A DNA stretch of 64,000 nucleotides from contig NZ_FXAT01000002.1 in assembly GCF_900177725.1 (NCBI RefSeq), positions 248,001-312,000 on the forward strand, in the 5' to 3' direction. The stretch is from Paraburkholderia susongensis. GTDB lineage: Bacteria > Pseudomonadota > Gammaproteobacteria > Burkholderiales > Burkholderiaceae. Positions within the stretch are counted from its first letter, which is position 1, and each line of letters begins with the position of its first letter. The notes beneath the pieces were generated by a model that made no database searches, was not told where the DNA came from, and saw only the letters and a list, made by a program, of their open reading frames with translations. The position numbers and the translations under genes are program-made. Positions 12,958 to 37,168 of the stretch are shown one piece after another.

Positions 12958-12993
12958 GATTTTTGGCTCCTAAAGCGTGGTGGCGTGGGTCGA

Positions 12994-13779: not shown

Positions 13780-14291
13780 CGGCGCCTCCCGGCGCGGCTG
13801 AAAGGTGCTGGCGCAGGCCGGCGGAAGTGTCGCCGTGGCGATGGCTGAAGCGCTCAGCATGTCGGCAACTCGCGCGGTTTTCATCTCGATTCGGTTCCCG
13901 TTCGTCATACCTGGCTCGATGGAAGGTGATGCGGCGGCGATTCTGGGCAAAGAGCTATGCGAACCAGAATACAAAGCCATATTTGCGTTCCGATTGCCCT
14001 AGAACAATTCTTTTTCCAGGGAGAACCGGGCCGCGCCATGAGATAAAAAGCCGACGGGACAGGAAACCGGCGTACGAGTCAGGGACAACACCTACCAGCA
14101 CGGCGCGAAACCAGTCACGGCGATGCCGCTGAGTTCCGCGCCCCCGATTCAGACCCGCGGCGAAGATTGAACTAGCACATTAAAAGCCGTTTTTCGCGGC
14201 ATTAGACTGCGGCCAGAAACGCCTGCAGGTGTCTCATTGCGTCCATGGGCCACCACTTTCCGCAACGACGTCACGCCAGAGAGAGGGGAAG
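13780..14291. promoter_or_regulatory. Divergent ehuA/doeA control region with candidate EnuR site
   Basis: A 512-base gap between the two divergent operons. At 13993-14010 it contains ATTGCCCTAGAACAATTC, which matches the motif near enuR, eutB and the MFS gene. The flanks are AT-richer than the genes (for instance around 14160-14210). No protein-coding frame here looks real; the longer frames are upstream extensions of ehuA and doeA without family similarity. Confidence 0.5.
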
Positions 14292-15512: not shown

Positions 15513-15573
15513 GCCCGTCGGCCTCCGTGCCGCCGTGATCGCGACGCGCACGGGAATACGTCAAAGGGGAAAC

Positions 15574-16668: not shown

Positions 16669-16689
16669 ATAACCGGCCTGCGCGGCACG

Positions 16690-16728
16690 CAGCCGGAACA
16701 GCGATCATCCGCTGCTCCGGCTGTTTTT
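16690..16728 (+). terminator. Intrinsic terminator after doeA-mdr operon
   Basis: CAGCCGGAACAGCG at 16690-16703 pairs with CGCTGCTCCGGCTG at 16710-16723 (one mismatch, six-base loop), followed by TTTTT. It lies 22 bases after the dehydrogenase stop codon and separates it from the convergent doeD gene. Confidence 0.8.
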
Positions 16729-16855
16729 CCATCCGCCTCACGACACTTCACTTCATGATCGGTCATTGATCAGAAGCGCCGGCCGCACCGCTTTCGCTGC
16801 GGCACACAAACCGGCGCGTCATCACCCCGTGTCACCACCCCGCGTCACCACCTCG

Positions 16856-18253: not shown

Positions 18254-18294
18254 GGGGAGCTCCTTCGTGTAATCGTTGGATGGGTTGGATTGAC

Positions 18295-19818: not shown

Positions 19819-19961
19819 GACGACCTCCTGTGTGCGATGTATGTCTGTCACTGTACGTCCGGTGGCGATGCGGTTTTTTTGGTTATGGGCCCTCAAAGCC
19901 GGTGTTTTTTCTGGAATTCGCCGCGATGCATGGCGATTCTCCAGCGCAGCCGCCGTACGCT

Positions 19962-20453
19962 TCAACTACCGTTGTCGATCATATGTTCCGCCCAGTCCGG
20001 CAAACCCTCCGCGTGGCTTTTCACCACCTTGGTGACGATGTAGGTAAAGTACTTTTCGATACCCAGCTCGTCGGTCAGGAGCGAATCGATAAAGCGCTGA
20101 TAGTGGTCGATGTCGCGCGACATCACATGCATCACATAGTCGACGCCGCCGCCCGTCGCATGGCATTGCACGACCTCCGGTGCGGCGGCGATCCGCTCCT
20201 CGAAGCGTCGCATGTCTTGCGCGGTATGGCGCGCCAGCGTGACCTCGACCACCACACGGCTGCCCTTGAAGGCGCGCACCCAGTCGATATCGGCGCGATA
20301 ACCGCGAATCACACCGCCCTCCTCCAGGCGCTTGACGCGCTCCCATGCCGGCGAGATCGACAGATTGATCTGCTCGGCGAGATGCGACTTGGCGATGCGC
20401 CCGTCGCGCGCGAGAATGAGCAAAATCGCCAGATCGTATCGGTCGAGTTTCAT
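19962..20453 (-). CDS. Lrp/AsnC family regulator of the ectoine locus
   Basis: A 163-residue Lrp/AsnC regulator. The N-terminal winged helix (MKLDRYDLAILLILARDGRI, then HLAEQINLSISPAWERVKRL) is followed by a RAM ligand-binding domain with GGGVDYVMHVMSRDIDHY near residue 110. Ectoine loci commonly encode such a regulator (DoeX or AsnC) beside doeB, and sensing an intermediate is the likely role. The start at 20453 is eight bases after the doeB stop; the earlier in-frame ATG at 20495 lies inside doeB. A 143-base gap to doeC with AT-rich tracts may hold its own target site. Confidence 0.88.
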   Translation of the reverse strand: MKLDRYDLAILLILARDGRIAKSHLAEQINLSISPAWERVKRLEEGGVIRGYRADIDWVRAFKGSRVVVEVTLARHTAQDMRRFEERIAAAPEVVQCHATGGGVDYVMHVMSRDIDHYQRFIDSLLTDELGIEKYFTYIVTKVVKSHAEGLPDWAEHMIDNGS

Positions 20454-20460
20454 CGTGCGC

Positions 20461-21498
20461 TCAGACTGCCACCGGTATGCCGCGCTCGACGACATCGGCC
20501 ACCACCGCGACCGTATCGCCGATCCGCACGAGACCGGGAAAATGCCGTGCCGCGAGCAGGCCGCCGCGGCGCGCGCGATATTCGACCGGCGCGACGCCGG
20601 TGCGCGACGCGTCGTGAATTCGCGCGATCACCTCACCGCTTTCAACCATCTCGCCCAGGTCCTTGCACAACTCCAGCAAGCCTTCGTGTTCGCTCGTCGT
20701 GAAGCAGGTGCCATCGGGCATGTCGAGCAGCGTCGTGGTGCGCGGGGCGGAGTGCCCCGTCTGGTGCCGGGCCTCATCTGAACCGAGGATGCCTGCCTGC
20801 TGCAGGAAACCCCGCACGCCGCGCTCCGCCACCGCTACGCTTTGTACAGTCGCCGTACCGCCGCCGCCGAGTTCAGTCGACACGAACACCTTGCCCGCTT
20901 CTTCGACGGCCGTGTCGTACAGGCCGACGCTATCGAGTTCGAGCATCCGCATCGAATACGGCGCGCCGAACGCGCGCATCGCCGCTTCGCACCGGGCCTG
21001 CTGATTGGCATCCGGCAGCAGATGAATCGCGGCAAACGGCACGAAGTCGAGCGTGCGGCCGCCGGCGTGCAGATCGAGTACGTAATCGGCGAGCGGCAGC
21101 AGATAGCGCTGAAAATAATCGGCGATCTTCTCGGTGACCGTGCCGTCCGGCTTACCCGGGAAACTGCGATTCAGATTGCCATGATCGATAGGCGACGTGC
21201 GCGTGCCCGCACGGAATGCGGGCAAATTCATGAACGGCACGATAATCACACGCCCTTTCACGTCGTGAGCCTTGAGCGTAGCGGCCAGCTTCGACAACGC
21301 AATCGGCCCCTCGTATTCATCGCCGTGATTGCCGCCGGTGAGAAGCGCCGTCGGTCCCTCGCCGTTGCGGACCACCGTGACTGGAATCATCTGCGCGCCC
21401 CACGCGGAGCCATCGTGCGAATAAGGCAGCTTCAGAAAGCCGTGTTGTTCGCCGTCGGCGTTGAAATCGACCGTCGGCTGAATGGGTGATGCCCGCAT
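20461..21498 (-). CDS. doeB: DoeB/EutE, N-acetyl-diaminobutyrate deacetylase
   Basis: A 345-residue zinc deacylase of the succinylglutamate desuccinylase/AstE family. The zinc motif GGNHGDEYEGP provides His and Glu, and the third ligand is in DYVLDLHAGG. It removes the acetyl group from N-acetyl-2,4-diaminobutyrate after DoeA. The start at 21498 has GGGAG upstream and matches the usual length; an upstream ATG at 21600, four bases after the eutC stop, would add 34 residues with no similarity but gives tight coupling, so it remains possible. The order eutB-eutC-doeB-lrp is typical. Confidence 0.9.
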   Translation of the reverse strand: MRASPIQPTVDFNADGEQHGFLKLPYSHDGSAWGAQMIPVTVVRNGEGPTALLTGGNHGDEYEGPIALSKLAATLKAHDVKGRVIIVPFMNLPAFRAGTRTSPIDHGNLNRSFPGKPDGTVTEKIADYFQRYLLPLADYVLDLHAGGRTLDFVPFAAIHLLPDANQQARCEAAMRAFGAPYSMRMLELDSVGLYDTAVEEAGKVFVSTELGGGGTATVQSVAVAERGVRGFLQQAGILGSDEARHQTGHSAPRTTTLLDMPDGTCFTTSEHEGLLELCKDLGEMVESGEVIARIHDASRTGVAPVEYRARRGGLLAARHFPGLVRIGDTVAVVADVVERGIPVAV

Positions 21499-21603
21499 AG
21501 GTACTACTCCCTCAAAAGCGACGCGCGCGCACGCCACAGAATCTTTCGACGCCGGAACAGATACGCTCGCCTCCCGTTCCAGTCGTGTTGTTTCAGGCAT
21601 CGT

Positions 21604-22611
21604 TCATTCCCGGCACTTCATGTCATTGCGAAAAATCGTGCCGGCGCCCACCGCGTGCGCCCGCTTCAATGCGAGCGCGGCAATCGCTGTGTCCTGCGCG
21701 CCGGTGCCGGTCAGGTCGCAGATGGTCACGTCAGTCTCGTCGGCACGGCCCACGGCCTGTCCCGCAATCACCTGACCGAGCTCCGCGATAGCGCCGCCGG
21801 CGTGCATCGCACCGGCATTCAGTGCGTGGTGCAACTCCCCTAGCACGCGTGTTTGCTGCGCGCGGTCGCACACATAGCGCGCCGCAGCCAGTGCGGCCGG
21901 CGCGATTTCATTCTTGTACTCGGCGTCCGAACCCATCGCCGTGATATGCAAGCCCGGATGCAGGTCTGCGGCTTCAATCAGCGGTGTGCGGCTTGGCGTC
22001 GTGGTGATTGCGATGTCGGCGTCGGCGAGCGCCTCGTGAACATCGCGCGCAACATCGCATGGCACACCGAGCGAGGCGGTCATTTCCACGGCGAAATGCT
22101 GTGCGCTGGCCGGATTACGCGCCCATACGCGCACGCGTTCGACGCGACGCACCAGCATCAACGCTCGCAATTGCAAACGTGCCTGCTCGCCGGCGCCAAG
22201 CACGGCCACTCGCGGCGTGTGCCGCTTCGCCAGCCAGCGCGCCGCGACCGCACCGGCGGCGGCCGTACGCACCGCCGTCAGATAACCGTTGTCGAGCAAC
22301 ACCGCTTCGGTCAGACCCGTGTTCGCCGACAACACCAGCATCAGACCATTCAGGCTCGGCAAACCGAGCGACGGATTGTTGAAAAACCCGGGACTCACCT
22401 TGATAGCGAAGCTACCGAAGCGTGGTAGATACGCCGTCTTGACATCGACTTCACCGTTGCGCTCAGGCAGATCGAGACGCAGGACCGGCGGCATCGCGAC
22501 GGCTTCGGTGGCGAGCGCGAGGAAAGCGGCTTCCACCTGGTCGATTGCGGCAAGGTCGAGCGGCACGAGTTCGCGAAGCTCCGCTTCGCCGAGGAGCGTG
22601 ATTGAGGTCAT
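21604..22611 (-). CDS. eutC: EutC, ornithine cyclodeaminase-like ectoine utilization protein
   Basis: A 335-residue member of the ornithine cyclodeaminase/mu-crystallin family. The N-terminal PERNGEVDVKTAYLPRFGSF and SPGFFNNPSLGLPSLNGLML hold substrate-binding Arg/Lys positions, and the Rossmann motif is VAVLGAGEQARLQLRAL. With EutA and EutB it is proposed to turn 5-hydroxyectoine into ectoine. The start overlaps the eutB stop by four bases (ATGA), so the two are translationally coupled. Confidence 0.9.
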   Translation of the reverse strand: MTSITLLGEAELRELVPLDLAAIDQVEAAFLALATEAVAMPPVLRLDLPERNGEVDVKTAYLPRFGSFAIKVSPGFFNNPSLGLPSLNGLMLVLSANTGLTEAVLLDNGYLTAVRTAAAGAVAARWLAKRHTPRVAVLGAGEQARLQLRALMLVRRVERVRVWARNPASAQHFAVEMTASLGVPCDVARDVHEALADADIAITTTPSRTPLIEAADLHPGLHITAMGSDAEYKNEIAPAALAAARYVCDRAQQTRVLGELHHALNAGAMHAGGAIAELGQVIAGQAVGRADETDVTICDLTGTGAQDTAIAALALKRAHAVGAGTIFRNDMKCRE

Positions 22612-23612
22612 AGGGCGTTGTGCGAGCTGGGTTGCGTCGAGGCGGAAGCGACGAGGCGGCGATGCTGCTCCATGTCGATGTTGGCGCCCGTTACGATCAG
22701 CACGAGAGGCCCGCGTTTGATACGCGCGGCCGGCAACATGCCGTCGAGCAAAGCGGCCATGCCCACCGCCGCCGCGCCTTCCACCACCAGCCGTTCATGC
22801 TCGTAAGCGTGCACGATGCCACGCGCAATCGACGCCTCGTCGAGCAGCACGGTCTCGTCGATCAGATCGCGTGTGAGCGCATACGTATAGCGGTTTTCGA
22901 GCCCGATGCCGCCGCCCAGCGAGTCAGCGAGCGTTTCGACTTCTTCGACCAGCACCGGGCGGCCCGCCGCAAGACTCGCATGCATCGCGGCGCCGCGCGA
23001 CATCGTCACGCCGGTCAGGCCGATTGCGCGATTAGCGCCGCGGGCAGCGAACGCAATGCCCGCAAACAGGCCACCGCCGGACAGGGGCACGACAATGTTC
23101 GCCACGTCCGGCAATGCCTCGACGATTTCGAGTCCGATGGTTGCCTGACCGGCGATCACATGCAGATCGTCGAACGGCGGGACATAGGCGAAACCTTCCT
23201 CCCGTACCAGTCTCAACGCTTCATGCTCCGCTTCGTCCTGGCTTTTACCGGCAATCCGTGCTTGTGCGCCGAGTGCGCGCACGGCCTCGACTTTATTCGC
23301 CGGCACGAGCGCGGACATGCAAACCATTGCATCGATACCCAGCGCGCGTGCTGCATGCGCAACCGCGCGGCCGTGATTGCCCGTCGAAGCGGTCACGACT
23401 TTGCGGCAACCCTGTTCGGCGAGTCGAGCGAGTGCATTGGTGGCGCCGCGCAGCTTGAAGCTGCCGGTCGGCTGCACCGTTTCGAGTTTCAGAAAGACCG
23501 GTGTGCCTGCCTTCTCCGACAGACTCTGCGATTCGACGAGCGGCGTATGAAAGACGCGCCCCGCGATACGACGACGCGCGCGGTAGACATCGGCTAACGA
23601 CAGAACGGACAT
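22608..23612 (-). CDS. eutB: EutB, hydroxyectoine utilization dehydratase
   Basis: A 334-residue fold-type II PLP enzyme, similar to threonine dehydratase. The PLP lysine is Lys53 in QPTGSFKLRGA, the phosphate-binding glycine loop is VVPLSGGGLFAGIA and the Asn loop is TASTGNHGRAVA. In ectoine loci this is EutB, proposed to act on the hydroxylated intermediate. First gene of the eutBC-doeB-lrp run, 165 bases downstream of enuR, with a candidate EnuR site in that gap. Confidence 0.9.
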   Translation of the reverse strand: MSVLSLADVYRARRRIAGRVFHTPLVESQSLSEKAGTPVFLKLETVQPTGSFKLRGATNALARLAEQGCRKVVTASTGNHGRAVAHAARALGIDAMVCMSALVPANKVEAVRALGAQARIAGKSQDEAEHEALRLVREEGFAYVPPFDDLHVIAGQATIGLEIVEALPDVANIVVPLSGGGLFAGIAFAARGANRAIGLTGVTMSRGAAMHASLAAGRPVLVEEVETLADSLGGGIGLENRYTYALTRDLIDETVLLDEASIARGIVHAYEHERLVVEGAAAVGMAALLDGMLPAARIKRGPLVLIVTGANIDMEQHRRLVASASTQPSSHNAL

Positions 23613-23731
23613 GAACGCGGCCCTGCACGAAAGGGTTCAATTCCGATGCTGTCGCACCTGCGTTCTCACGCTGATTTGCGGCCGCATCGTTTTCAATGCA
23701 GTCCAGTCTAATGTTCTAAAAAACGATTTCC

Positions 23732-23747
23732 ATTGTCCTAGTTCATT
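23732..23747 (+). promoter_or_regulatory. Candidate EnuR operator between enuR and eutB
   Basis: ATTGTCCTAGTTCATT, matching 25267-25282 at 14 of 16 positions. A related half, AATGTTCTAA (reverse complement TTAGAACATT), lies about 23 bases away at 23710-23719. It is well placed to control eutB. Confidence 0.5.
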
Positions 23748-23777
23748 TCATCTGAGCGGTGCGAAACCGGATCGAAC

Positions 23778-25175
23778 TCAGGTGAAATCGTGCACCTGCG
23801 GGTACTGCTCGAACACGTCGCGCATCGTTTCCAGCGCGGCTTTATAGGTTTCTTCGCCAACCTCGACGCCGACGCAGATACGCACCGCGTTCGGCCGCTC
23901 CGCGTCGCGCACCAGAAATGGATCAGGTGAAGTCACGGCGATATCGCGGTTGCGCAGTTCTCGCACCAGACGGTCGGTGCGCCAGTGATCGGGAACGCGC
24001 AGCCAGGCGGACAGTGCCTGTGGATGCGCGCCGAGCACGTATTTACCCAACGTTTGCTGCAATTGCGCCTGACGCCGTCCCAGACGTTCGCGCTGTATTT
24101 CCACGAGCCGTTCGGCGGTTCCGTCGACGATCCATCGTGTCGCCACTTCGGCCATCGGCGAAGTCGCCATCCAGCTGCTCACACGCAGCACGCTTTCAGC
24201 GCGTAGTGCAAGCCGCCGCGGCGTGGCGAGGTAGCCGATCCGCAAACCGGCCATCACCGACTTCGTCAGGCTCGTGCAATAGAACGACAGATCGGGAATC
24301 AGACTCGAAATCGGTGTGCCATGCTTCGCGGGCAACGGACCATAGACGTCGTCCTCGATCACGTAAACGCCATAGCGTTCGGCGATTTTCGCAATCGCGC
24401 GGCGCCGCGAGTCGGGCATGAGCGCAACGGTGGGATTGTTCAGCGTGGGCGTGCAGACAAGGGCCGTGATGCGCTCGCTATCGCACATCTCTTCGAAGTG
24501 TTCAGGGTGAATGCCGTACTCGTCGATCTCGAGGCCTTTCAGCGTAAAACCCAGCACATTCGCTGAGCCGATCACGCCGTGATCCGTGAGGCTTTCGCAC
24601 AATACCGTGTCGCCTGGCCCCACAAGCGAAGCCAGCGCCAGAAAGATGCCGTGCGCCGCGCCATTCGTGACGAGCAGCGTATCCGCCGAAGCCGGCATGC
24701 CCAGCGACGCGAGCCACGCGATCCCGGCCTGCCGATGATGCTCGAAGCCCGCAATAGGCCGGAAAGCGCGAATCCACGGCTGGTCGTCGAGTGTCGAAAG
24801 CGTCGCGCACACCTTGCGCCACATGGCGTCGTGCTCCGCCGTATGAATGATGCGTGCGATCGAGAAGTCGACCACCGAGCGCTCGGCGGTGTCGAGCATA
24901 TAGCGCGACATGGTTTCGGTGACGCGCGCCGCCACGAAGCTGCCACGTCCCACCTCGCAACGGATCAGCCCCTGCCGTTCCAGCTCCTTATAGGCGTTGG
25001 TCACCGTCTGCACACTGATCGCCAGTCCCGCGGCGACATCGCGCTGCGGTGGCAGGCGAGCGCCTGCCGGCAGCGACGCGCTCTCGATGTCGCCGGCGAT
25101 CGCCTTGACCAGCCGTTTATATTTCGATTCGACGCCGTGCACCGCGCGCACGGCTTCCCGCCACTGCTCGATCAC
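23778..25175 (-). CDS. enuR: EnuR, MocR/GabR-type regulator of ectoine use
   Basis: A 465-residue MocR regulator: an N-terminal GntR winged helix (residues about 15-80, with LPPQRDVAAGLAISVQTVTN) joined to a class I aminotransferase domain. The PLP lysine is Lys305 in TSLTKSVMAGLRIGYL. In studied EnuR proteins PLP is bound by this Lys and the pathway intermediates N-acetyl-diaminobutyrate and diaminobutyrate act as inducers. It lies directly upstream of eutB in the same direction, the usual place for enuR. A motif copy upstream of its own start suggests autoregulation. Confidence 0.9.
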   Translation of the reverse strand: MIEQWREAVRAVHGVESKYKRLVKAIAGDIESASLPAGARLPPQRDVAAGLAISVQTVTNAYKELERQGLIRCEVGRGSFVAARVTETMSRYMLDTAERSVVDFSIARIIHTAEHDAMWRKVCATLSTLDDQPWIRAFRPIAGFEHHRQAGIAWLASLGMPASADTLLVTNGAAHGIFLALASLVGPGDTVLCESLTDHGVIGSANVLGFTLKGLEIDEYGIHPEHFEEMCDSERITALVCTPTLNNPTVALMPDSRRRAIAKIAERYGVYVIEDDVYGPLPAKHGTPISSLIPDLSFYCTSLTKSVMAGLRIGYLATPRRLALRAESVLRVSSWMATSPMAEVATRWIVDGTAERLVEIQRERLGRRQAQLQQTLGKYVLGAHPQALSAWLRVPDHWRTDRLVRELRNRDIAVTSPDPFLVRDAERPNAVRICVGVEVGEETYKAALETMRDVFEQYPQVHDFT

Positions 25176-26440: not shown

Positions 26441-26968
26441 TCATGGCGCGAGCATCGTGCGTTTCACACGAAGCGCGGCGAGAATGCCTCTCAGGATATC
26501 GATGGGGGGCGGCGGACAACCCGGTACCGTGACGTCGACAGGAAGAAATTTCGAGAGCGGTCCACATACGGCGTAGCTTTCCTTGAACATGCCACCGGTG
26601 CAGGCGCACTCGCCAACTGCGACGACCAGCTTCGGCTGCGGCGTCGCCTCGTAAGCTCGCAATACCGCTTCCTGCATGTTCAGCGTGAGCGGGCCAGTGA
26701 CGAGCAGCATGTCGGCATGGCGGGGACTCGCGACGAACCTGATACCCAGTCCTTCGATGTTGTAGTACGGATTGTTGAGCGCATGGATTTCCAGTTCGCA
26801 TCCGTTGCAGGAGCCCGCGTCGATCTCCCGAATGCACAACGCCCGGCCTAGTATGTCGAGTATGTCCTGCTGGATCTGCTGGCTTCCGGTGCGCCATGCG
26901 TCATCGCCTTCCGGCACACGCTGATCCGGTGTGTCGGTTTTCGCGATCTGTTTGAGAAGTTGCCACAT
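26441..26968 (-). CDS. hyfI: HyfI/NuoB-like small iron-sulfur subunit
   Basis: A 175-residue subunit of the [NiFe]-hydrogenase-4/complex I small-subunit family. All four ligands of the proximal 4Fe-4S cluster are present: Cys54 and Cys57 in GSCNGCELE, Cys121 or Cys123 in GECACTGG, and Cys151 in PGCPPPP. The CxxC spacing is hydrogenase-like rather than the CC of NuoB. It would pass electrons from or to the HyfG site on the cytoplasmic side of the membrane. The start overlaps the hyfG stop by one base (TAATG). Confidence 0.9.
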   Translation of the reverse strand: MWQLLKQIAKTDTPDQRVPEGDDAWRTGSQQIQQDILDILGRALCIREIDAGSCNGCELEIHALNNPYYNIEGLGIRFVASPRHADMLLVTGPLTLNMQEAVLRAYEATPQPKLVVAVGECACTGGMFKESYAVCGPLSKFLPVDVTVPGCPPPPIDILRGILAALRVKRTMLAP

Positions 26969-28530
26969 TACAGGTCATGTCCCGCGTAGTTCAGATTGAA
27001 CGACTTGTTGATCAGTGGAAAATCGGGAACGATATTGCCGATGATCGCGTGTTCGAGTGCCGGCCAGTTCTGCCATGACGGGTCATGGCAGTGACATCGC
27101 AAAATGTTCCCGTCAGTCCCGGTCTCCAGTGCGATGAACACATCGCCGCGCCAGCCTTCGATCCACCCCACCCCGCGTGATGGCGCGCCTTCGTGTTCAA
27201 GCGGCGTGACGATACTGCCTCCCGGCAGGTCCGAGAGAAGAGTCCGGATCAGCCGGACCGATTCGTAGATCTCGTTGAACCTCACCGTGACTCGAGCCGC
27301 CACGTCGCCCCGGTCATCGTTGACGGCCTGCACCTGAACCTCGTGGTAAGGCGCGTAGGGATGATCGATGCGCACATCGATTTTCCGGCCGCTCGCACGC
27401 CCCACCAGCCCGCACACGCCGAAGTGCTCCGCCACTCTTGCGGAGAGGACGCCGGCACCCGCAAAGCGATCCTGCAGCCCCGACTGGTCGTCGTAAATCT
27501 TCTGCATCACACGGACCTGCGCGTCAATCTGGTCGCACTGCGTCAGCATCGCGGCGATGAAGCGCGGATCGATGTCCGTTGCGACGCCCCCGGGAACGAT
27601 CCGATCCATCAGATAGCGATGTCCGAAAGCCTGATTGTTCAGACGTAGCCAGTCTTCCTTCAGACGGGAAAACTGTGCGAGGCCATACGCGAACCCCGCG
27701 TCGTTGCCGAGCGCTCCAAGGTCACCCAGGTGGTTGGCAATGCGCTCGCGCTCCAGCAGCAGCGCGCGCAGCCACTGCGCGCGTGGCGGAATCCGTCCAT
27801 TCAACGCTCGCTCGACCGCCATGCAATAGGCCCACGTAAACGCGACCGTCGTGTCTCCGGCGATGCGTCCTGCGAGACGGTGTCCGTCGAGCGCGGACAC
27901 GTGCTCGAACAGCCGCTCGATTCCCCGGTGCGCATAGCCCAGCCGCTCCTCGAGGCGCAACACCTTTTCGCCGACAACCGAGAAGCGGAAGTGTCCGGGC
28001 TCGATCACGCCTGCGTGGATCGGACCGACGGCAATCTCGTGAACACCGTCACCATCGACGTGGACGAACGGATAGTCCGCTTCCTGGGATTGAAACCGCT
28101 CGGTCCCGGAGGACAATTTCTGCAACGGAAAGTAATCGGCAGGCCAGTTGCCATGATTCAGCCACGGCCGTGTATCGCCGGCGCCGATCGCGCGCAGCCC
28201 GACCAGATCGTAGACGGCCCGTTGCATGCGTGTCGCGCACGGAAAGACCGCCGATATGTCCGGGTATCCGTCGCTGTCCCCATGCCCGCCGGCTACCGGC
28301 AACTGAAGCCACAGGATGCCGTCCTCCAGCGCGTAAGCGGCGGAGATCGCGAATGTGCCCGGAGCTTCTTCGGCACCCCACAGGGAGATCAGGCGGCCAT
28401 CTGTCTCGCGTACGGCTGCGGCGGTGCGGATCCACGCGTCGGCATCGACCCGCGCGAAATAAGCCGACGACCTGCCCGCAAACACGGACAGGCGAACCAG
28501 TTCGGGAAACCCGAATGCCTCGATGCGCAT
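26968..28530 (-). CDS. hyfG: HyfG-like large subunit lacking NiFe ligands
   Basis: A 520-residue protein with a NuoC-like part (about 1-150) joined to a NuoD/HycE-like part (about 165-520), as in HycE/HyfG. The segment HAGVIEPGHFRFSVVGEKVL and the YAHRGIERLFEH motif are clear. The hydrogenase L1 motif (CGxC) is replaced by Ala-Gly-Asp-Thr in GRIAGDTTVAF (residues 221-231), and the C-terminal L2 motif (DPCxxC) by DPSWQNW (483-489). It cannot hold a normal NiFe centre. It is probably an Ehr-type complex subunit whose redox partner is unknown. Confidence 0.88.
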   Translation of the reverse strand: MRIEAFGFPELVRLSVFAGRSSAYFARVDADAWIRTAAAVRETDGRLISLWGAEEAPGTFAISAAYALEDGILWLQLPVAGGHGDSDGYPDISAVFPCATRMQRAVYDLVGLRAIGAGDTRPWLNHGNWPADYFPLQKLSSGTERFQSQEADYPFVHVDGDGVHEIAVGPIHAGVIEPGHFRFSVVGEKVLRLEERLGYAHRGIERLFEHVSALDGHRLAGRIAGDTTVAFTWAYCMAVERALNGRIPPRAQWLRALLLERERIANHLGDLGALGNDAGFAYGLAQFSRLKEDWLRLNNQAFGHRYLMDRIVPGGVATDIDPRFIAAMLTQCDQIDAQVRVMQKIYDDQSGLQDRFAGAGVLSARVAEHFGVCGLVGRASGRKIDVRIDHPYAPYHEVQVQAVNDDRGDVAARVTVRFNEIYESVRLIRTLLSDLPGGSIVTPLEHEGAPSRGVGWIEGWRGDVFIALETGTDGNILRCHCHDPSWQNWPALEHAIIGNIVPDFPLINKSFNLNYAGHDL

Positions 28531-28533
28531 ATG

Positions 28534-29994
28534 TCACCCCGCGATCATGGCCGCCGCCTGCCGATACCACGTCGCAAGATAGGGCGGAATGTAGAGTCCC
28601 AGCATCAACCCGATTCCAAGATGGACAAACACCGGCAACAACGCCGGTGGGTGTTCAAGAACCTTGGCCGTCGTGTCCCCGAACACCATACCCTGCACGC
28701 GCACGAAGATGGCAGCGAACGCCACGGCAAGCGCGAGCAACAGGAAGGGCGTGGCCCACGGGAGTTTGCTCATTGCGGTCGTCAGGATCAGGAACTCGCT
28801 TGCGAAGACGCCGAACGGCGGCATGCCGAGAATCGCGAGCGCGCCGAGCATCATGCCCCACCCAACGGTTGGGCTCACGCGTAACAACCCGCGGATGTCG
28901 TCGATCGCCTGGGTGCCGGCCTTCTGGGCCGCATGCCCGACGGTGAAGAAGATGGCCGACTTCACCAGCGAATGCACCGTCATGTGGAGCAGGCCCGCAA
29001 AGGTCGCGATGGGGCCGCCAAGCCCGAAGGCGAACGTCATCAGGCCCATGTGTTCGATCGACGAATACGAAAAGAGCCGCTTGACGTCTTTCTGCCGGAA
29101 CAGCGAAAAAGTGGCGATCAGCACCGAGACCAATCCGAAGCCGACCAGCAAGTGTCCTGGCAGGCCGTTCTGGAGTGCACCGTCGGCTAGCACCTTGCAA
29201 CGCAGCACCGCATAGAGCGCGACGTTGAGCAGCAGACCGGACAGCACGGCCGAAATCGGTGTAGGACCTTCGGCATGTGCGTCGGGCAGCCAGTTGTGCA
29301 TGGGCACGAGGCCGACCTTGGTGCCATAGCCGATCAGCAGAAACACGAACGCTAGCGAAATGATGGTCGGGTCGAGACTCCCCTTGACCGCGTTCAGACT
29401 GGTCCAGAGCAGCGCATCGCCGCCGCCGAGCTGCCGGCTCGCGGCGAGATAGAGAAGGATCGTGCCGAACAGCGCCTGCGCGATGCCGACGCCGCACAGG
29501 ATGAAATACTTCCATGCGGCTTCGAGACTTGCCGCCGTGCGATAGACGCTGACCAGCAGCACCGTGGCGAGCGTGGCCGCTTCCATGGCGACCCAGAGGA
29601 TGCCCATGTTGTTGGTGAGCAGCGCGAGCAGCATCGCGAAGATGAACAACTGGTACATGCTGTGGTAGAGGCGCATACGCGGGCCGGTCATCTTGCCGCG
29701 GTCACGCTCGATGCGCATGTACGGTCTTGAAAAGATCGACGTGGTCCAGCCGACGAAGGCTGTCAGCGCGACCAGAAACACGTTGAGCGGATCGACGAAG
29801 AACAGCTTGCCCAGCGCGAACGCCGGCCCGTGCGCCACGGTTTGCACGGCGAGCAGCGCGGCGGCCGCGAATGTGAGGAAGCTGAAGCCGACGTTTAGCT
29901 CGGCCGCGACATGGTGCTGTCCCACCAGCGCCAGACACATGCCTGCGAAAAGCGGAACTCCGAAAACCAGCAGCAGTACCCAGGCTTCAGTCAT
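28534..29994 (-). CDS. hyfF: HyfF-like antiporter-type membrane subunit
   Basis: A 486-residue NuoN/MrpD-like membrane protein with about 14 predicted helices. The conserved region around GYGTKVGLVPMHNWLPDAHA carries the key Lys of the proton channel, followed by SAVLSGLLLNVALYAVLR and FSYSSIEHMGLM. It likely takes part in proton or sodium translocation. The ATG at 29994 is preferred to a TTG at 30009. It overlaps no gene on the start side except hyfE, whose stop is at 29987. Confidence 0.87.
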   Translation of the reverse strand: MTEAWVLLLVFGVPLFAGMCLALVGQHHVAAELNVGFSFLTFAAAALLAVQTVAHGPAFALGKLFFVDPLNVFLVALTAFVGWTTSIFSRPYMRIERDRGKMTGPRMRLYHSMYQLFIFAMLLALLTNNMGILWVAMEAATLATVLLVSVYRTAASLEAAWKYFILCGVGIAQALFGTILLYLAASRQLGGGDALLWTSLNAVKGSLDPTIISLAFVFLLIGYGTKVGLVPMHNWLPDAHAEGPTPISAVLSGLLLNVALYAVLRCKVLADGALQNGLPGHLLVGFGLVSVLIATFSLFRQKDVKRLFSYSSIEHMGLMTFAFGLGGPIATFAGLLHMTVHSLVKSAIFFTVGHAAQKAGTQAIDDIRGLLRVSPTVGWGMMLGALAILGMPPFGVFASEFLILTTAMSKLPWATPFLLLALAVAFAAIFVRVQGMVFGDTTAKVLEHPPALLPVFVHLGIGLMLGLYIPPYLATWYRQAAAMIAG

Positions 29995-30646
29995 CTTTGA
30001 GTTTTTCAAGGTGATGAATGTCCAGACTGTCGAACTGCTCGCGGATCTGGAACATGAACACGCCGAGGATCAGGATGCCCACCAGCACATCGAGTCCAAT
30101 GCCGAGTTCAACGATCATCGGCATGCCGTTCGTGGCCGCGGCCGCAGCAAAAAACAGGCCGTTTTCCATCGACAGGAAGCCGATCACCTGCGGTATCGCC
30201 TTTGCGCGTGTAATCATCATCATGAACGACAGCAGCACGCAGGCGAGCGCGATGCCGAGCGTGCCGCGGGCGACCGACGAGGCGAGCTGGCTGATCGGCG
30301 ACGCGACATTGAACGCCACGATCACAAGCACGATGCCGATCAGCAGGGTGGCGGGAATGTTGAGGAGGGACTCCACATCCGTCTTGACGTCGAGCCGTTG
30401 CACGAGCCTGTAAAGTATCCAGGGAATCAGGCCGACCTTGAGCACCAGGGTCAGTGCGGCGGAGATATAAAGGTGTACGTCGGCAGTGACATATCCCAGG
30501 ATGACATTGGCTGACACGAGTGCCACGCCCTGCAGCGTGTACAGATGAATCAGCGACAGGATCCGGCGCTGGCTGAGCATCGCAAACGACAGCAGCAGCA
30601 GGATGGCGGCCAGGAAGTTGATGATCTGCGTGGCGAACCCGTGCAT
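29987..30646 (-). CDS. hyfE: HyfE-like membrane subunit
   Basis: A 219-residue hydrophobic protein with about seven predicted helices, similar to HyfE, whose C-terminal part resembles NuoK. FLSMENGLFFAAAAATNGMP contains the glutamate that is equivalent to a conserved membrane Glu of NuoK. It lies between hyfC and hyfF in the usual order of hydrogenase-4-type operons, and its start is immediately after the hyfC stop. Confidence 0.85.
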   Translation of the reverse strand: MHGFATQIINFLAAILLLLSFAMLSQRRILSLIHLYTLQGVALVSANVILGYVTADVHLYISAALTLVLKVGLIPWILYRLVQRLDVKTDVESLLNIPATLLIGIVLVIVAFNVASPISQLASSVARGTLGIALACVLLSFMMMITRAKAIPQVIGFLSMENGLFFAAAAATNGMPMIVELGIGLDVLVGILILGVFMFQIREQFDSLDIHHLEKLKDD

Positions 30647-31597
30647 TCACGCCCCCAGCAGAAAGTGAACGAGCATCCCGATGACGGCCAGCAGGAACGC
30701 TGTCGCGAGAAACTCCGGCACGCGGAAAATGCGCATCTTCGCGTTGGTTGTCTCGACTACCGCCAGCGCCGCGCCACCTATCAATAACTTGATGAACAGC
30801 GCGGGTATCGCGAGCAGCAGCGCTGTCGGATTGCCGGCCTCCGCGATGCCCCACGGGATGAACAAGGCGAGCCCGATGCAGGAGTACGCGAACAGTTTGA
30901 GACTCGCGGCCCATTCCATCAGCGCGAGATGCCGGCCGGAATACTCGAGGATCAGCGCCTCGTGGATCATGGTCAGTTCGAGGTGCGTGGTCGGGTTGTC
31001 GACCGGCAGGCGCGCGTTTTCGGCGAGCGACACCATCGTGAACGCGATCCCCGCGAACGCGAGGCTCGGATAGATCGCCAGTTCGCGATGGCTGAGCGTG
31101 GCGACGATCGTGGTCAGCAAGGTCGACTGCGTGATCAGCGCCGCCGAAAACAGCACCATCAGCAAGGCAGGCTCCGCGAGGAAGCCCACCAGCATCTCGC
31201 GGCGCGCGCCGAGCGTGCCGAACGCGGTGCCGACGTCCATCGCGGCCAGCGAGATGGCCACGCGAGCCAGCGCGAAAAGACCCACCAGGGCGATCGCGTC
31301 CGCTGCCGGCGACAGGGGAAGGTCGGTTGAAAGCGTGGGTACGATCGCACAAGCAAGCGTCATGCATGCCCAGACGACATACGGCGCGCCGCGGAATATC
31401 GGACTGGCGTGATCGGCGACGACCGACTCCTTGTTGAACAGCTTGTGCAGCATCCGGTAGGGCTGCCAGATACTCGGCGCCCGGCGGTTCTGCAACCTGG
31501 CGCGGCACATGTTGACCCAGCCCGTCAGCAGTGGGGCCGCCGCCAGAGCAAGCAGGATCTCCAGCCCCTGGGAGAGCAATCCGGAGAGCGTAATCAT
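30647..31597 (-). CDS. hyfC: HyfC/NuoH-like membrane subunit
   Basis: A 316-residue protein of the NuoH/HycD family with eight or so helices. The N-terminal loop RRAPSIWQPYRMLHKLFNKE and the ENARLPVDNPTTHLELTMIH segment, with its conserved Glu and Asp residues, are typical. This subunit connects the hydrophilic arm with the antiporter-like subunits. Its start overlaps the hyfB stop by four bases. Confidence 0.9.
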   Translation of the reverse strand: MITLSGLLSQGLEILLALAAAPLLTGWVNMCRARLQNRRAPSIWQPYRMLHKLFNKESVVADHASPIFRGAPYVVWACMTLACAIVPTLSTDLPLSPAADAIALVGLFALARVAISLAAMDVGTAFGTLGARREMLVGFLAEPALLMVLFSAALITQSTLLTTIVATLSHRELAIYPSLAFAGIAFTMVSLAENARLPVDNPTTHLELTMIHEALILEYSGRHLALMEWAASLKLFAYSCIGLALFIPWGIAEAGNPTALLLAIPALFIKLLIGGAALAVVETTNAKMRIFRVPEFLATAFLLAVIGMLVHFLLGA

Positions 31598-33603
31598 CGT
31601 CTCACCAGCAGCAGCAGCACGATCAGCACGAGAAAGCTGTGCATCAGATAGACCGCGATGCGGCCTGTCTGGAGCAGGCCGGCCAGAGCCGCGACGCGCT
31701 TGACCAGTTGCGCGATCGGCTCATAAATCAGGGCCCACGCACGATCTGTCACGGTGACGCTATACACGGGGTGACTGTCGAATGGCGAAGGAAGCCGCCG
31801 TTCGATCCTGAACAGCGGTGCGAAGATTTCGCGGATCGGCTGCCCGAACCCTTCTGCGGTGTCCTGCATGCGCGCGTTCACGAACGGAAAGCCACAGGCC
31901 CAGGGTGCCGCACGCCGCAGGCGTCCATGGTAAAGACGGCGCACCAGCATCCACGCGAGCCCGCAGCAGGCAACGAAGAACAGCAGGAAAATCAGCGGCA
32001 TGTAGCTGGCACGGCCTACACTGGTGGGTGCGAGCAGCAGCCAGCCGTTGCGCGCGACAGTGGGTCCGATGCCCACGCCAACCAGCATCTGCGTGATGCG
32101 ATCCAGAACGACCACGAACTGCACCGGCAACAACCCGAGCAGCACGCATATCGCTGCGAGCCACGCGAAGCCGACGCGCTCCCACGGACTCGCATCCCGT
32201 GCCTCGCGTAACTTCGCTTCGCGAGGTTGACCGAGAAAGATGATGCCGAAGAACTTGACCATCGTGTAGCCCGCGAGCGCGGCCACGAGGGCAATCAGCG
32301 CGGCCACGAGCGGGACCACCATATTCAGGAACGGGTCAGGCAGGCCGGGGGTGAACAGAAAGCTCTGCAGCAGCAGCCATTCGGAGACGAAGCCGCTCAA
32401 TGGCGGCAGGCCCGCACTGGCAAACGCGCCCACGAGAGCGGCCCACGCCGTCCACGGCATGAAACGGATCAGGCCGCCCAGGCGCCCGAGATTGCGCTCG
32501 CCTGTCGCGTGGAGCACGGAACCGGTGCCGAGAAACAGCAGGCTCTTGAAGGCCGCGTGGCTGGCGATCTGGTAGAACAGAGCCGTCATCGACAAGGCGG
32601 CCAGCGCGTTCATCCCGTATGCGCGAAACAGGATCGCGAGCCCCATGCTGACGAACATCAGGCCGATGTTGTCGATCGACGAGTACGCAAGCAGCCGCTT
32701 CATGTCCGTCTGGATGGCGCTGAACACCACTCCGAACAGGGCGGTGAAGAGTCCGAGCATCAGCATGAGCACGCCCCACCATGCGATCTGCACGTGCAGC
32801 AGGTCGAACACTGTGCGCAACACGCCATAAAGGCCGGCTTTCAGGACGAAGCCGCTCATGAGGGCCGACACCGGTGACGGCGCTGCCGGATGGGCCTCGG
32901 GAAGCCAGACATGCAGCGGAAAGATCCCTGCTTTCGTGCCGAAGCCGAACAGCGCCAGCAGAAACGCGACGGACGCCCAGAATACGTCCAGATGCTGCTC
33001 GCGCATATTGGCGAACGTGTAGTCGCCGGTATTCGCCTGCAACAGGCCGAAGCACAGCAGGAGCGCGAGTGCACCGACGTGGGAGATCAGGAAGTAGAGC
33101 CAGGCCGCCCGGCGGATGTCGGCGAAGCGGTGATTGGTCATCACGAGGAAAGTGGCCGATACCGTCATCGTCTCCCACGCAACCATGAAGCAATACGCAT
33201 CGTCTGCCAGCAGCAGTACTGCCATGCTCGCGAGGCACACGTGATATTCGAAGCAGAGTAATCCAGGCGGTGTACCCTCGCCCTTGCGGAAATAGCCGGC
33301 GGAGAATGCACTCACGCCCGTGCTCACCACGCCGAGTACTGTGAGGAAATACGCCGACAGGCCGTCGAGCCGAAAATGGAACGGCAGGTCCGGCAACCCG
33401 AGCGGCACGATGGCTTGCTGGGGATTTGAGAAAACGCCGGTCAGGCCCAGTCCGCACAGAAGCAGGCCGAACACCGCGCCGACAGGAAACAGCACGTGCG
33501 CCACAACGCGTGTGCGGCGCAGGTTCGCGAGTCCCAGAACCGCAACGACGAGCCAGCCCGCGACCACCAGCACCACGTAATGGACGACCAGCAGATGTTC
33601 CAT
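31594..33603 (-). CDS. hyfB: HyfB-like antiporter-type membrane subunit
   Basis: A 669-residue NuoL/HyfB-like protein with about 16 helices. The conserved core GFGTKAGIFPLHVWLPEAHP with the channel Lys is followed by SALMSGFVLKAGLYGVLR and LLAYSSIDNIGLMFVSMGLA. The ATG at 33603 is chosen because GGAG lies nine bases upstream and the hydrophobic N-terminus begins there; the frame runs 63 bases further upstream. It is 20 bases after the first spermidine-synthase-like gene, suggesting one transcript for that gene and hyfBCEFGI. Confidence 0.9.
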   Translation of the reverse strand: MEHLLVVHYVVLVVAGWLVVAVLGLANLRRTRVVAHVLFPVGAVFGLLLCGLGLTGVFSNPQQAIVPLGLPDLPFHFRLDGLSAYFLTVLGVVSTGVSAFSAGYFRKGEGTPPGLLCFEYHVCLASMAVLLLADDAYCFMVAWETMTVSATFLVMTNHRFADIRRAAWLYFLISHVGALALLLCFGLLQANTGDYTFANMREQHLDVFWASVAFLLALFGFGTKAGIFPLHVWLPEAHPAAPSPVSALMSGFVLKAGLYGVLRTVFDLLHVQIAWWGVLMLMLGLFTALFGVVFSAIQTDMKRLLAYSSIDNIGLMFVSMGLAILFRAYGMNALAALSMTALFYQIASHAAFKSLLFLGTGSVLHATGERNLGRLGGLIRFMPWTAWAALVGAFASAGLPPLSGFVSEWLLLQSFLFTPGLPDPFLNMVVPLVAALIALVAALAGYTMVKFFGIIFLGQPREAKLREARDASPWERVGFAWLAAICVLLGLLPVQFVVVLDRITQMLVGVGIGPTVARNGWLLLAPTSVGRASYMPLIFLLFFVACCGLAWMLVRRLYHGRLRRAAPWACGFPFVNARMQDTAEGFGQPIREIFAPLFRIERRLPSPFDSHPVYSVTVTDRAWALIYEPIAQLVKRVAALAGLLQTGRIAVYLMHSFLVLIVLLLLVRR

Positions 33604-33623: not shown

Positions 33624-34457
33624 TCAGACGTCCTGTTCGACGGTCGGCGTGTTGGACGAAGGGCATCCCGCAACGGCCTCTGCCCGGTGATGACGTTCCA
33701 TTTTTTTGACATACCGGTACAGATCAAGCCCCGTCGATTTCGTGATGGCCTCAGCGCGGGCATAGAGGTCAAGCCACCCAGGCACGGTTCTCTGTTTGAC
33801 CCCGATCGCGATCGTGTTGCCTTCGCGCCGCGCTATGGTGCGGAACAGTTTTCCGTTGCACGCGCGGCGTAACCGGTCGAGGTAGATGGCGAGCCGCGGG
33901 TCGCTGTTCAGCAGGTTGGCCACCAGCACACCTTCGTCGCGCAGCGCAGCATGACAGCAGTCGTAAAAAGACTGGCTCGACAGGCTGGCGGGCAGCCCGG
34001 ACGCGTCGAATCCATCGAGCAGGATCACATCCGTGAAGCCAACCTTGCCCGAGAGATATTCCGCAGCGTCGGCGTGCACGATCCGGAATCGGTCTGATTC
34101 AGGTGGAATGAAAAACTGCTCGCGCAACGCGATCACTCTCTCGTCGATTTCCACGTTGGTCACCCGTGCAGACGGAAACTTCTGGAAGCAGTATTTCGAC
34201 AGCGATCCTCCGCCCAGTCCCACGATCAGGATGTCTTCGGGACTGGAGTGAAAAAGCTGGAATGACATCATGGCTCGCGTGTACGGCAGATCGAGCGCAA
34301 GCGGATCACTCTGGCGCATCGAGCTTTGTATGCCGAACGCGTCGAAACGCAGCGACCGCGTGCGCGGCCCCTCGCGTATCACGGGTTCCCCGGAAGTCTT
34401 TCCCCGTCGCCTCGTCAGGGCTTGCCTGAACGGATTGTGATCGGCCGGCAAATTCAT
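33624..34457 (-). CDS. Spermidine-synthase-like methyltransferase-fold protein (copy 1)
   Basis: A 277-residue protein with the SpeE Rossmann fold. The AdoMet/dcAdoMet motif is ILIVGLGGGSLSKYC, and the acidic strand end VTNVEIDERVIALRE follows. The SpeE catalytic DxTDP motif is replaced by LLDGFDASGLP, so putrescine as substrate is doubtful. The ATG at 34457 follows AGGAGG closely; the frame extends far upstream without similarity. It appears to be the first gene of the hyf operon and is paralogous to the gene at 36401. Confidence 0.8.
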   Translation of the reverse strand: MNLPADHNPFRQALTRRRGKTSGEPVIREGPRTRSLRFDAFGIQSSMRQSDPLALDLPYTRAMMSFQLFHSSPEDILIVGLGGGSLSKYCFQKFPSARVTNVEIDERVIALREQFFIPPESDRFRIVHADAAEYLSGKVGFTDVILLDGFDASGLPASLSSQSFYDCCHAALRDEGVLVANLLNSDPRLAIYLDRLRRACNGKLFRTIARREGNTIAIGVKQRTVPGWLDLYARAEAITKSTGLDLYRYVKKMERHHRAEAVAGCPSSNTPTVEQDV

Positions 34458-34967
34458 TGTCCTCCTGAAACCGCGCGGTCCAGTTGCCATGATTAGCAGT
34501 CGTGCAGTGACTGAGAGATGACGACTGGGCCGCGGTAAGCTCAACGCATCCATCCGTGAGGGACAGGCGCCGGGATAGCGCCTGCCGCCAGACACGTTTC
34601 GAAGCGCGGCACGGCGTGAGTGAGCATACGCGCCGCGTTTTCGTGAACCGCGTCGCCGCTGCATCGTTGCTGCGACGTATGCAACCGCGGCATCCCTGCA
34701 TGCCGCCCACCTTCCGGAGAGGTTCTCCATCAGGAGCATCAGGTTAGCAGTTAATGATAATTGCGTTATCATCCTAGCAGCTTTATTGTTCTGGTTCCAC
34801 ACGTGATGATCCGTCGACGTGAGCGGAGGACATGCCGCGTTCGTTCAGGACGCGCCGGAGATACGGGTTTCACCCCGCGCGTGGAATTTGAGAAAACAGC
34901 CTGCTGCACCGGTCCCCGCCTGCGCCGAGGCGCGGTCCGGATACGCGAACACACGAGTCGATACCTG
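34458..34967. promoter_or_regulatory. Divergent control region with a 19-bp palindrome
   Basis: The 510-base gap between the hyf operon and the DUF1275 gene. At 34754-34772 it contains ATGATAATTGCGTTATCAT, a perfect inverted repeat of seven-base arms around five bases, in a locally AT-rich stretch. The arms resemble Fur/Zur-type half-sites, but the spacing does not match a canonical box. It is a likely operator for one or both operons; no gene is seen in the gap. Confidence 0.55.
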
Positions 34968-35723
34968 ATGCCAGCACACTATTTCCGGACCTTGACGGGA
35001 AAGGATCGCAGCACCAGAGCCAACAGGCAGCTTGGCTTCTCGCTTGCGTTCGTGGCTGGTGGGACCAACGCCGGCGGCTTCCTGGCAGTGAAGCAGTACA
35101 CGTCCCATATGAGCGGCGTGGTCTCTGCGATTGCCGACCAGACCGCCCTGGGCGACCTCTCGCTGGTTCTGGCGGGTGCCGGATCGCTGATCTCATTCCT
35201 GCTGGGCGCCGCCTGTTCCGCCGTGCTCATCAACTGGGGGCGGCGCCGGCGGCTGAACAGTCAGTACGCGTCGCCGTTGCTGGTCGAGGCTGTCCTGCTG
35301 CTTTGTTTCGGGTTGCTCGGCAGCCATCTCGCCCTGTGGGAAACCCTGTTCGTGCCGGCGACGGTCGTGCTCCTGTGCTTCATCATGGGTCTGCAGAACG
35401 CAATGATCACGAAGCTTTCGGGTGCGGAAATCCGTACCACCCATATGACGGGCACCGTGACGGATATCGGCATCGAGATCGGCAAGCTCCTCTACTGGAA
35501 TTCATCGAAGGTCGAACCCACTAAGCCGTTTGTCCTCGCGAACCGGGCAAAGCTGAAAGTACACATGACGATGCTGACGATGTTCTTTGTCGGTGGCATC
35601 ACAGGGGCGATGGGATTCAAACACATCGGCTACGCCTCGACGGTACCGCTTGCGGGCGTGCTGATTGTGCTGGCCATCGTGCCCCTCGTTGACGACCTGC
35701 GCACGGCAGGGAGGTTGACGTGA
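34968..35723 (+). CDS. DUF1275 (YoaK-like) membrane protein
   Basis: A 251-residue protein with six or so predicted helices, of the DUF1275/YoaK family. The N-terminal FVAGGTNAGGFLAVKQYTSH followed by MSGVVS is the family signature, and GLQNAMITKLSGAEIRTTHM is the mirrored second signature, consistent with an internal duplication. Its function is unknown. The frame is open upstream into the palindrome region; the ATG at 34968 fits the family N-terminus. It overlaps the next gene's GTG start by four bases. Confidence 0.87.
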   Translation: MPAHYFRTLTGKDRSTRANRQLGFSLAFVAGGTNAGGFLAVKQYTSHMSGVVSAIADQTALGDLSLVLAGAGSLISFLLGAACSAVLINWGRRRRLNSQYASPLLVEAVLLLCFGLLGSHLALWETLFVPATVVLLCFIMGLQNAMITKLSGAEIRTTHMTGTVTDIGIEIGKLLYWNSSKVEPTKPFVLANRAKLKVHMTMLTMFFVGGITGAMGFKHIGYASTVPLAGVLIVLAIVPLVDDLRTAGRLT

Positions 35724-36334: not shown

Positions 36335-36400
36335 CCGGCCAATGCAAAAGACAGCGCACACACCCGCCGATTGCCGCCGCATCGGTTTTCGACCATACAC

Positions 36401-37168
36401 ATGAAAAGAGAGAGAAAGGCGAGCAAGCCCCTGGTCATAGAGAATGACCAGGTGGTTTCACTGTACTTTGATGCGCGCGGCGTGCAGAGCACTATGTTGC
36501 GGCACTATCCGTACGCCCTTGCGCTGGGTTATACGCGCACCATGATGGGTTTCCTGCTGTTCCAGCCATTTCCGCGCCGCATTTCGATGATCGGTCTGGG
36601 TGGCGGTTCGCTGGCGAAATACTGCTATCGCCACTTGCCCGACACCGAGATTGCCGTCGTCGAAATCAACCCCCAGGTGATCGCGCTGCGCGACCGGTTC
36701 CATGTGCCGCGTGATAGCGAACGCTTCAAGGTGATCTGTGCCGACGGAGCGCAGTACGTCACGGTTCCGGATTACCGGCCCGACGTGCTGCTGATCGACG
36801 GTTTCAACGCCGACGGGTTGCCCGCCGAGCTCGGTAGCAGGACGTTCTACGAGGCCTGCCGTCGCCGGTTGAGTGACAACGGGGTAATGGTGGCCAATCT
36901 GGTGACGGACGAACCGGACTTCCATCACTACCTTCGCTCGCTCAGGGAAGTCTTCGCGGACGCGGTGACGCTGGCGCCGTCCGAAGGCAGCGAACACAAC
37001 GTCACTGTTTTTGCGTGGAAAGGAGCCGATGAGTTTCCGTCCCTCGCAACGATGCTCGACCGGGCGCGCGCGCTCGAACCCACGCATGCGGTGAATCTCC
37101 ATGCGACGGCCGCGCGCATCGAGTACGGCAAGAGGTTTAACTGGGATCGATACGGACAGGCGAGTTGA
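36401..37168 (+). CDS. Spermidine-synthase-like methyltransferase-fold protein (copy 2)
   Basis: A 255-residue paralogue of the gene at 33624-34457. Motif SMIGLGGGSLAKYCYRHLP matches copy 1, VVEINPQVIALRDRF gives the ribose-binding acidic position, and the catalytic segment is LIDGFNADGLP, again without the DxTDP of true spermidine synthase. The ATG at 36401 is chosen; an in-frame TTG at 36371 lies upstream. The paralogues flank the DUF1275 and HPr-like genes on opposite strands. The role is unknown; aminopropyl transfer or a methyltransferase-like activity are both possible. Confidence 0.8.
   Translation: MKRERKASKPLVIENDQVVSLYFDARGVQSTMLRHYPYALALGYTRTMMGFLLFQPFPRRISMIGLGGGSLAKYCYRHLPDTEIAVVEINPQVIALRDRFHVPRDSERFKVICADGAQYVTVPDYRPDVLLIDGFNADGLPAELGSRTFYEACRRRLSDNGVMVANLVTDEPDFHHYLRSLREVFADAVTLAPSEGSEHNVTVFAWKGADEFPSLATMLDRARALEPTHAVNLHATAARIEYGKRFNWDRYGQAS

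Follow-up and report, generated by a model that had tools for sequence, protein, structure and literature searches.

The hyf operon and its subunits

Within a 64,000-nucleotide stretch of the Paraburkholderia susongensis genome (assembly GCF_900177725.1, contig NZ_FXAT01000002.1, positions 248,001 to 312,000), here called the window, open reading frame listing and profile scans identify six adjacent genes of the expected families on the minus strand at 26441-33603, in the order hyfB-C-E-F-G-I, just as in the original prediction of a Hyf-like membrane complex devoid of nickel-iron (NiFe) ligands. HyfB (hyqB, 31594-33603; NCBIfam NF005086, 915 bits) is an antiporter-like proton-channel subunit whose ATG is read at 33603, and since this gives a protein of 669 residues, the length found in relatives, the end coordinate proposed earlier is correct. 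Alignment to E. coli HyfB, HycC, NuoL and NuoM reveals that it keeps the NuoL/M-type residues E165, K245, K374 and E429 (numbering of the 690-residue open frame), and the second antiporter-like subunit, HyfF (hyqF, 28534-30009; NF005045, 925 bits), likewise keeps E143, K231 and K310 of the complex-I antiporter-like subunits in alignment. HyfC (hyqC, 30647-31597; 316 residues, Pfam PF00146) is a NuoH-type subunit in which many of the NuoH-type charged residues are aligned and kept, and its stretch THLELTMIHEA carries a three-residue insertion that is common to R. leguminosarum and absent in E. coli HyfC, HycD and NuoH, while HyfE (hyqE, 29987-30646; 219 residues) is a small membrane subunit matching NCBIfam NF008556 with 104 bits, under the cut-off of 136. 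The NuoB-like HyfI (hyqI, 26441-26968), recognised from the frame listing, a profile scan and alignment, has one predicted [4Fe-4S] cluster, and all four of its cysteines, C54, C57, C121 and C151, are kept, so that the proximal ligands are indeed intact as had been stated. No HyfH/NuoI, fused or separate, is found at the operon, and a subunit of its own for electron input is missing. The remaining gene, hyfG (hyqG, 26968-28530), encodes according to profile scans, alignments and a structural model a fused NuoC/NuoD-like large subunit of 520 residues without NiFe cysteines.

The ratios of nonsynonymous to synonymous substitution rates (dN/dS) of the six genes against two Paraburkholderia relatives (L037, L122) are 0.03-0.23, which amounts to purifying selection and, together with the near-invariant HyfG residues described below, rules out a degenerate pseudogene. 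A frameshift or sequencing error hiding cysteines of the true protein is hardly an explanation either, since the same site residues are found in two named genomes whose HyfG is 90% identical (L036, L037). FNR and sigma-54-like sites occur in the window in no excess over chance.

The former metal site of HyfG and its loss

The loss of the metal ligands had been read from two motifs, CGxC appearing as AGDT and DPCxxC appearing as DPSWQNW. The first of these is borne out, as HycE RVCGIC aligns with RIAGDT at residues 222-227 (motif L1), but the second was misplaced: DPSWQNWP (483-490) aligns with HycE ATYANWP, Mbh EPTFPNL and NuoCD TPSFAHL, and is a motif common to active hydrogenases and complex I, whereas the true L2 is the stretch NLNYAG, from N512 to G517, which aligns under DPCYSC and leaves three residues to the C-terminus. 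It nonetheless holds that both cysteine pairs are missing, the metal positions 224, 227, 514 and 517 being A, T, N and G.

For the conservation counts each locus or protein contributed a single row, giving 234 rows, or 227 once identical ones were removed. The sample leans towards close relatives, comprising 120 of the 8000 scored proteins and the best 80 of the 582 confirmed stretches. Across these relatives the four metal positions are occupied by serine (211/227), by serine or threonine (200 and 20 of 227), by serine (213/226) and by glycine (221/225), and among 225 readable rows cysteines are absent from all four positions in 219, present at one in 5 and present at all four in a single row, L062. 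D226 is found in 226/227 rows, the sole exception being the four-cysteine row L062, and near-invariance extends to N508 (226/227), K509 (225/226), Y515 (226/226) and E177 (227/227). Since D226, N508, K509 and Y515 are each present in at least 225 of the 226-227 readable rows, the dead NiFe site of HyfG is, on the evidence of its sequences, remodelled and not decayed. The six cysteines that the window HyfG does contain are each conserved in only 6 to 23 of 38 rows, and the protein lacks the extension that group 4 NiFe enzymes have C-terminal to the second cysteine pair, ending three residues past L2. Structural modelling, which had been suggested as a check, yielded a HyfG model with a predicted local distance difference test (pLDDT) score of 86.6, with low confidence at 171-178 and with HycE (7z0s_E) as the best PDB match.

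Two further candidates for the site were considered and rejected. One is H480-x-H482-D483 as a metal site, of which H480 and H482 are invariant in 18 near relatives, but in a wider set H480 is kept in 30/38 and H482 in 22/38 rows. The pair D226-K509 as a filler of the metal site is contradicted by K509 being already present in the four-cysteine protein L062, from which it follows that metal loss is accompanied by D226 and the serines but not by K509.

The L062 HyfG (1809-3590) has all four NiFe cysteines, CGVC ... NKSFELCYSC, yet shares the NKSF motif with the cysteine-less clade, and its operon immediately precedes a hyf operon of the cysteine-less type. It is placed as sister to the cysteine-less clade with support of 92/84, just under the program's mark and in a tree with long branches. 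The existence of such a four-cysteine sister in a tandem operon makes it probable that this lineage once had the NiFe site and lost it. We infer from one tree and one four-cysteine sequence that N508 and K509 would have come first and that D226 and the serines would have accompanied the loss; the L062 protein is a likely intermediate and possibly forms a functional pair with the adjoining operon. An earlier tree left two type-2 rows ungrouped and joined the alphaproteobacterial Hyq to other rows than the later one. In the trees the window HyfG stands apart from the NiFe-bearing E. coli HycE and HyfG as well as from NuoCD, which agrees with the placement in the Ehr group put forward by the original prediction. 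A Variovorax plasmid (L123) carries a type-2 (1-3485) and a window-type (6897-14081) hyf operon side by side, as in L062, and tandem pairing of hyf operons may recur.

Host genome, neighbouring genes and possible functions

The host genome of 7.72 Mb is 99.1% complete, and the nearest named relatives of its HyfG are those of Paraburkholderia. A hypD match at E <= 1e-20, present in 78/250 genomes of the order, is missing from it, as are a nifH above the cut-off and any NiFe large subunit besides two Ehr-like frames, while it does carry a form I/II-class RuBisCO and, elsewhere in the genome, a full-length NuoD. Since HypD, nifH and any other NiFe large subunit go undetected in a 99%-complete host, a role of the complex there in NiFe or nitrogenase-linked hydrogen (H2) metabolism is very unlikely, and whatever its reaction may be, NiFe and nitrogenase are very probably both dispensable for it. 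The statement that the window is free of maturation genes and formate dehydrogenase also stands, none of the genome's nine molybdopterin oxidoreductase matches falling inside it. The second Ehr-like frame belongs to a type-2 operon of the host (L005, G000:C15:184000-203999, positions 6072-14937), which consists of two DUF190 (PII-like) genes followed by C, E, F, G, a HyfI with a fused cysteine-rich domain, and B, and whose HyfG is without metal cysteines and without the NKS motif.

A close HyfG is found in 63/249 other genomes of the order, a list compiled by eye that includes fragments (G011, G126, G131, G164) and some incomplete genomes. With kinship ignored, genomes with the operon more often have hypD (39/63 vs 39/186), nifH (24/63 vs 13/186) and RuBisCO I/II (43/63 vs 49/186), and since all three are enriched, no single role is singled out. 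Both hypD and nifH are missing from 21/63 carriers, and all of hypD, nifH and RuBisCO from 16/63, some of these genomes being incomplete. Where hypD and the operon do co-exist (39 genomes), hypD is on another contig (34) or more than 500 kb away (5); in family f5, by comparison, all four of the four-cysteine loci have it no more than 12 kb away.

The best explanation, which we favour only tentatively, is that a six-subunit complex of the Ehr/Hyq kind without a NiFe site transfers electrons between a ferredoxin-type carrier and quinone and thereby moves protons. A proton-moving redox function is suggested by the antiporter-like arm with its ion-path residues, by the [4Fe-4S] set of HyfI and by the polar HyfG site without NiFe ligands. 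A soluble ferredoxin-type carrier would dock on HyfI, where HyfH/NuoI sits in relatives, and the ferredoxin-like cysteine-rich stretch fused to HyfI in L005 and L062 suggests that a soluble ferredoxin takes this place in the window complex. Electrons would then pass the HyfI cluster and leave via quinone in the HyfG/HyfC cavity, with the antiporter-like arm coupling the transfer to proton movement, and the direction may be reversible, such that the proton-motive force could drive reduction of the carrier.

Several observations count against a carrier:quinone pump. Quinone is proposed as the partner because of the relation to complex I, and the proposal is weakened by the fact that the quinone ligands Tyr87 and His38 of complex-I NuoD are not kept, the columns holding G225 and I176/E177, although the alignment of the His loop is uncertain and the model has low confidence in this part (171-178). 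Furthermore, a cysteine-motif scan of flanking frames below 250 residues at 73 loci returned three matches, two of them a POR-linked pair, POR-type genes being found downstream of hyf in L102 and L104, and no constant ferredoxin or formate dehydrogenase neighbour was seen in the neighbour scans, one of which covered 65 of the 234 listed neighbours and the 25 most frequent of their 84 families. Carbon-fixation neighbours are likewise not directly explained by such a pump, and the deletion phenotypes of the A. caulinodans Hyq would by analogy point to H2 and not to ferredoxin.

It is on these phenotypes that an alternative function as H2:quinone oxidoreductase with a non-NiFe metal site, as claimed for the Azorhizobium Hyq, is founded. 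At 20 uM O2, H2 release rose about 15-fold upon hyq deletion and about 45-fold with hup also deleted, whereas deletion of hup alone made hardly any difference (1.3-fold), and below 1 uM O2 more H2 was evolved by hyq+ cells than by hyq deletions (PMC3357923). The window operon shares the six genes of Hyq and their order, and the higher frequency of nifH and hypD among carriers would be in line with a link to H2. However, of the conserved HyqG cysteines, reported as 258, 491 and 497 in A. caulinodans (PMC3357923), the R. leguminosarum counterparts C259, C491 and C497 correspond in the window protein to G275, I507 and L513, and 205/226 readable rows have none of the three while 8 have all. The host furthermore has no match for hypD, no nifH over the cut-off and no other NiFe large subunit, and the Hyq papers, as far as the parts consulted go, report genetic work but neither a cofactor nor a purified enzyme (PMC2650096, PMC3357923). 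These are the only mutant data seen, and as they come from a related branch with features that the window complex lacks, we consider this function unlikely in the present case.

Neighbouring genes were compared at 80 named loci, 73 of which gave a clustered HyfG frame. The six hyf genes have one order across the loci laid out, and constant neighbours are few. A spermidine-synthase-like gene is within 200 bp of the operon or overlaps it in 8/73 named loci and a SulP gene is within 700 bp in 7/73, and these are the most frequent neighbour families (7 and 6) in a Pfam search of 65 of the 234 listed neighbours. In the window a spermidine-synthase-like gene (33624-34457, minus strand; 277 residues; NF003380, 215 bits, under its cut-off of 304), with AGGAGG followed by ATG, ends 20 nucleotides ahead of hyfB and is probably on the same transcript. 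A second such gene is found at 36371-37168, and genes of this kind adjoin hyf, on either side, in several bacterial groups. Between the two lies a DUF1275 (YoaK) gene (34761-35723), which is also near hyf in 6/73 named loci and on a Rhizobium plasmid. Further away, ectoine and hydroxyectoine utilisation genes (DoeA, EutB and an EhuR-type regulator) occupy 14229-25175 on the 3' side of the operon, and RND efflux genes with a metal-type sensor kinase occupy 54417-62440. A correspondence to the low-oxygen locus of B. cenocepacia, suspected because of universal stress proteins near a relative, was dropped; hyf is not named in the papers searched.

Elsewhere the operon is found with genes of carbon fixation. 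The layout in L146 and L147 is hyf, a CsoSCA-like carbonic anhydrase, a GGDEF/EAL protein, cbbR and cbbLS, that of L065 is SulP, hyf and the same type of carbonic anhydrase, and in L077 a form II RuBisCO follows 249 nucleotides after hyfI. Stand-alone proteins with a weak match to the carboxysome shell carbonic anhydrase are encoded at 12325-13380 of L065, 7313-8371 of L146 and 7312-8370 of L147.

The cyanobacterial NDH-1MS is an inorganic-carbon complex, and by comparison with it or with DAB the window complex could supply inorganic carbon, being coupled to proton force or redox chemistry and working with carbonic anhydrase and bicarbonate transport. The neighbours just described, the SulP genes and the excess of RuBisCO I/II among carriers, as well as its presence in the host, speak for this notion, as do the presumed counterparts in A. 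caldus, two reported hyfBCEFG clusters of which one is beside a carbonic anhydrase and one with carbon-fixation genes (PMC3826726). It is nevertheless unlikely, since 20/63 carriers have no RuBisCO I/II, the scanned flanking genes of the window operon include no carbonic anhydrase, SulP or RuBisCO match, the operon has no DabA-type subunit while HyfI keeps its redox cluster, and RuBisCO or anhydrase is near the operon in few lineages (2/80 named loci), L146 and L147 having been chosen because RuBisCO lay near. Carbon supply is the best lead for autotrophs, where it may be a purpose served by the pump already proposed and not a reaction of another kind. A more specific version, in which the branch is the bacterial counterpart of NDH-1MS, that is a ferredoxin-quinone pump whose pocket of D226, K509, N508, N512, S/T227 and Y515 would bind or hydrate CO2/bicarbonate without metal, would explain the recurrence beside RuBisCO, SulP and carbonic anhydrase, but we find it quite improbable.

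Reduction of sulfur compounds has a precedent in the archaeal MBS/Mbx complexes, MBS belonging to the same superfamily and reducing sulfur (PMC7684303), and sulfur oxidation has given some of the carriers their names (Thiobacillus, Thiomonas). Such a function is however highly improbable, as HyfG matches the Mbx large subunit (6u8y_L) with 85 bits vs 212 bits for HycE, no conserved cysteine is found at the site and the operon holds no sulfur genes.

Relation to known systems

Contrary to the suggestion of a candidate undescribed complex, the six-gene set, the lack of NiFe ligands and the doubtful hydrogenase role are already known. The six genes are reported for C. metallidurans CH34 (Rmet_4666-4671) and C. 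necator H16 (H16_A2196-2201; PMC2864759), hyfBCEFGI for Nitrospira (PMC5596200; there as Ehr in PMC12342949) and for Acidithiobacillus ferrooxidans (PMC7735108), and the Hyq branch for Azorhizobium, where it was called an endo-hydrogenase and studied by deletion (PMC2650096, PMC3357923). New here are the remodelled near-invariant site, the absence of the Hyq cysteines, the four-cysteine sister in a tandem operon, a host without detected HypD, nifH or other NiFe large subunit, and the position of some relatives beside RuBisCO, carbonic-anhydrase or SulP genes; literature word searches brought up no recognised description of the D226/N508/K509 site or of the four-cysteine sister, which does not prove their absence in print. 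Complexes of this kind are common, as the genomes sampled in the order attest, and their function is disputed, one group naming them hydrogenases despite the missing metal ligands and others leaving the function unassigned. With a polar site that hardly varies, a sister protein that still bears the four metal cysteines and a host in which neither HypD nor nifH is detected, the identity of the reaction becomes a testable question.

Among the known relatives, E. coli Hyc/Hyf shares the HyfG fold and homologues of B, C, E, F, G and I, but the window complex differs by lacking NiFe cysteines, by having no HyfA, D, H or J alongside and by a host in which no hypD was found, and thus departs from group 4 [NiFe]-hydrogenases in the four cysteines, in HypD and in the C-terminal extension. 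It differs from complex I in that no NADH module or NuoI is present among the operon and the scanned flanking genes. Complex-I-like membrane subunits and, in some relatives, carbon-fixation neighbours are shared with DAB/NDH-1MS, but neither the operon proteins nor the scanned flanking genes yielded a DabA, and HyfI keeps its redox cluster.

The likeness to Hyq is closer, comprising the same six subunits in the same order, which is also that of Rhizobium L120, L125 and L131, a large subunit without CxxC, the same four HyfI cysteines and a HyfG identity of 43-45% to Rhizobium and Azospirillum. Besides the three HyqG cysteines, differences are that a spermidine-synthase-like gene and not a hyqR-like gene precedes hyfB in the window, that nothing indicates membership of a nif regulon, the host having no nifH over the cut-off and sigma-54-like sites being at chance level, and that Hyq falls outside the clade of the window protein in both trees, its exact place varying between them. 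Ehr is defined by a group-4-like large subunit without NiFe ligands and by antiporter-like membrane subunits (PMC6349859, PMC12342949), both of which the window complex has, although Ehr is a loose class set by the absence of ligands; a formate dehydrogenase partner has been proposed for some other Ehr complexes (PMC6349859). The HyfG of Cupriavidus CH34 is 56% identical and has the same site, with no difference of substance seen for this subunit. Judged by its sequences, the window complex is accordingly filed as Ehr, as a separate branch near Hyq.

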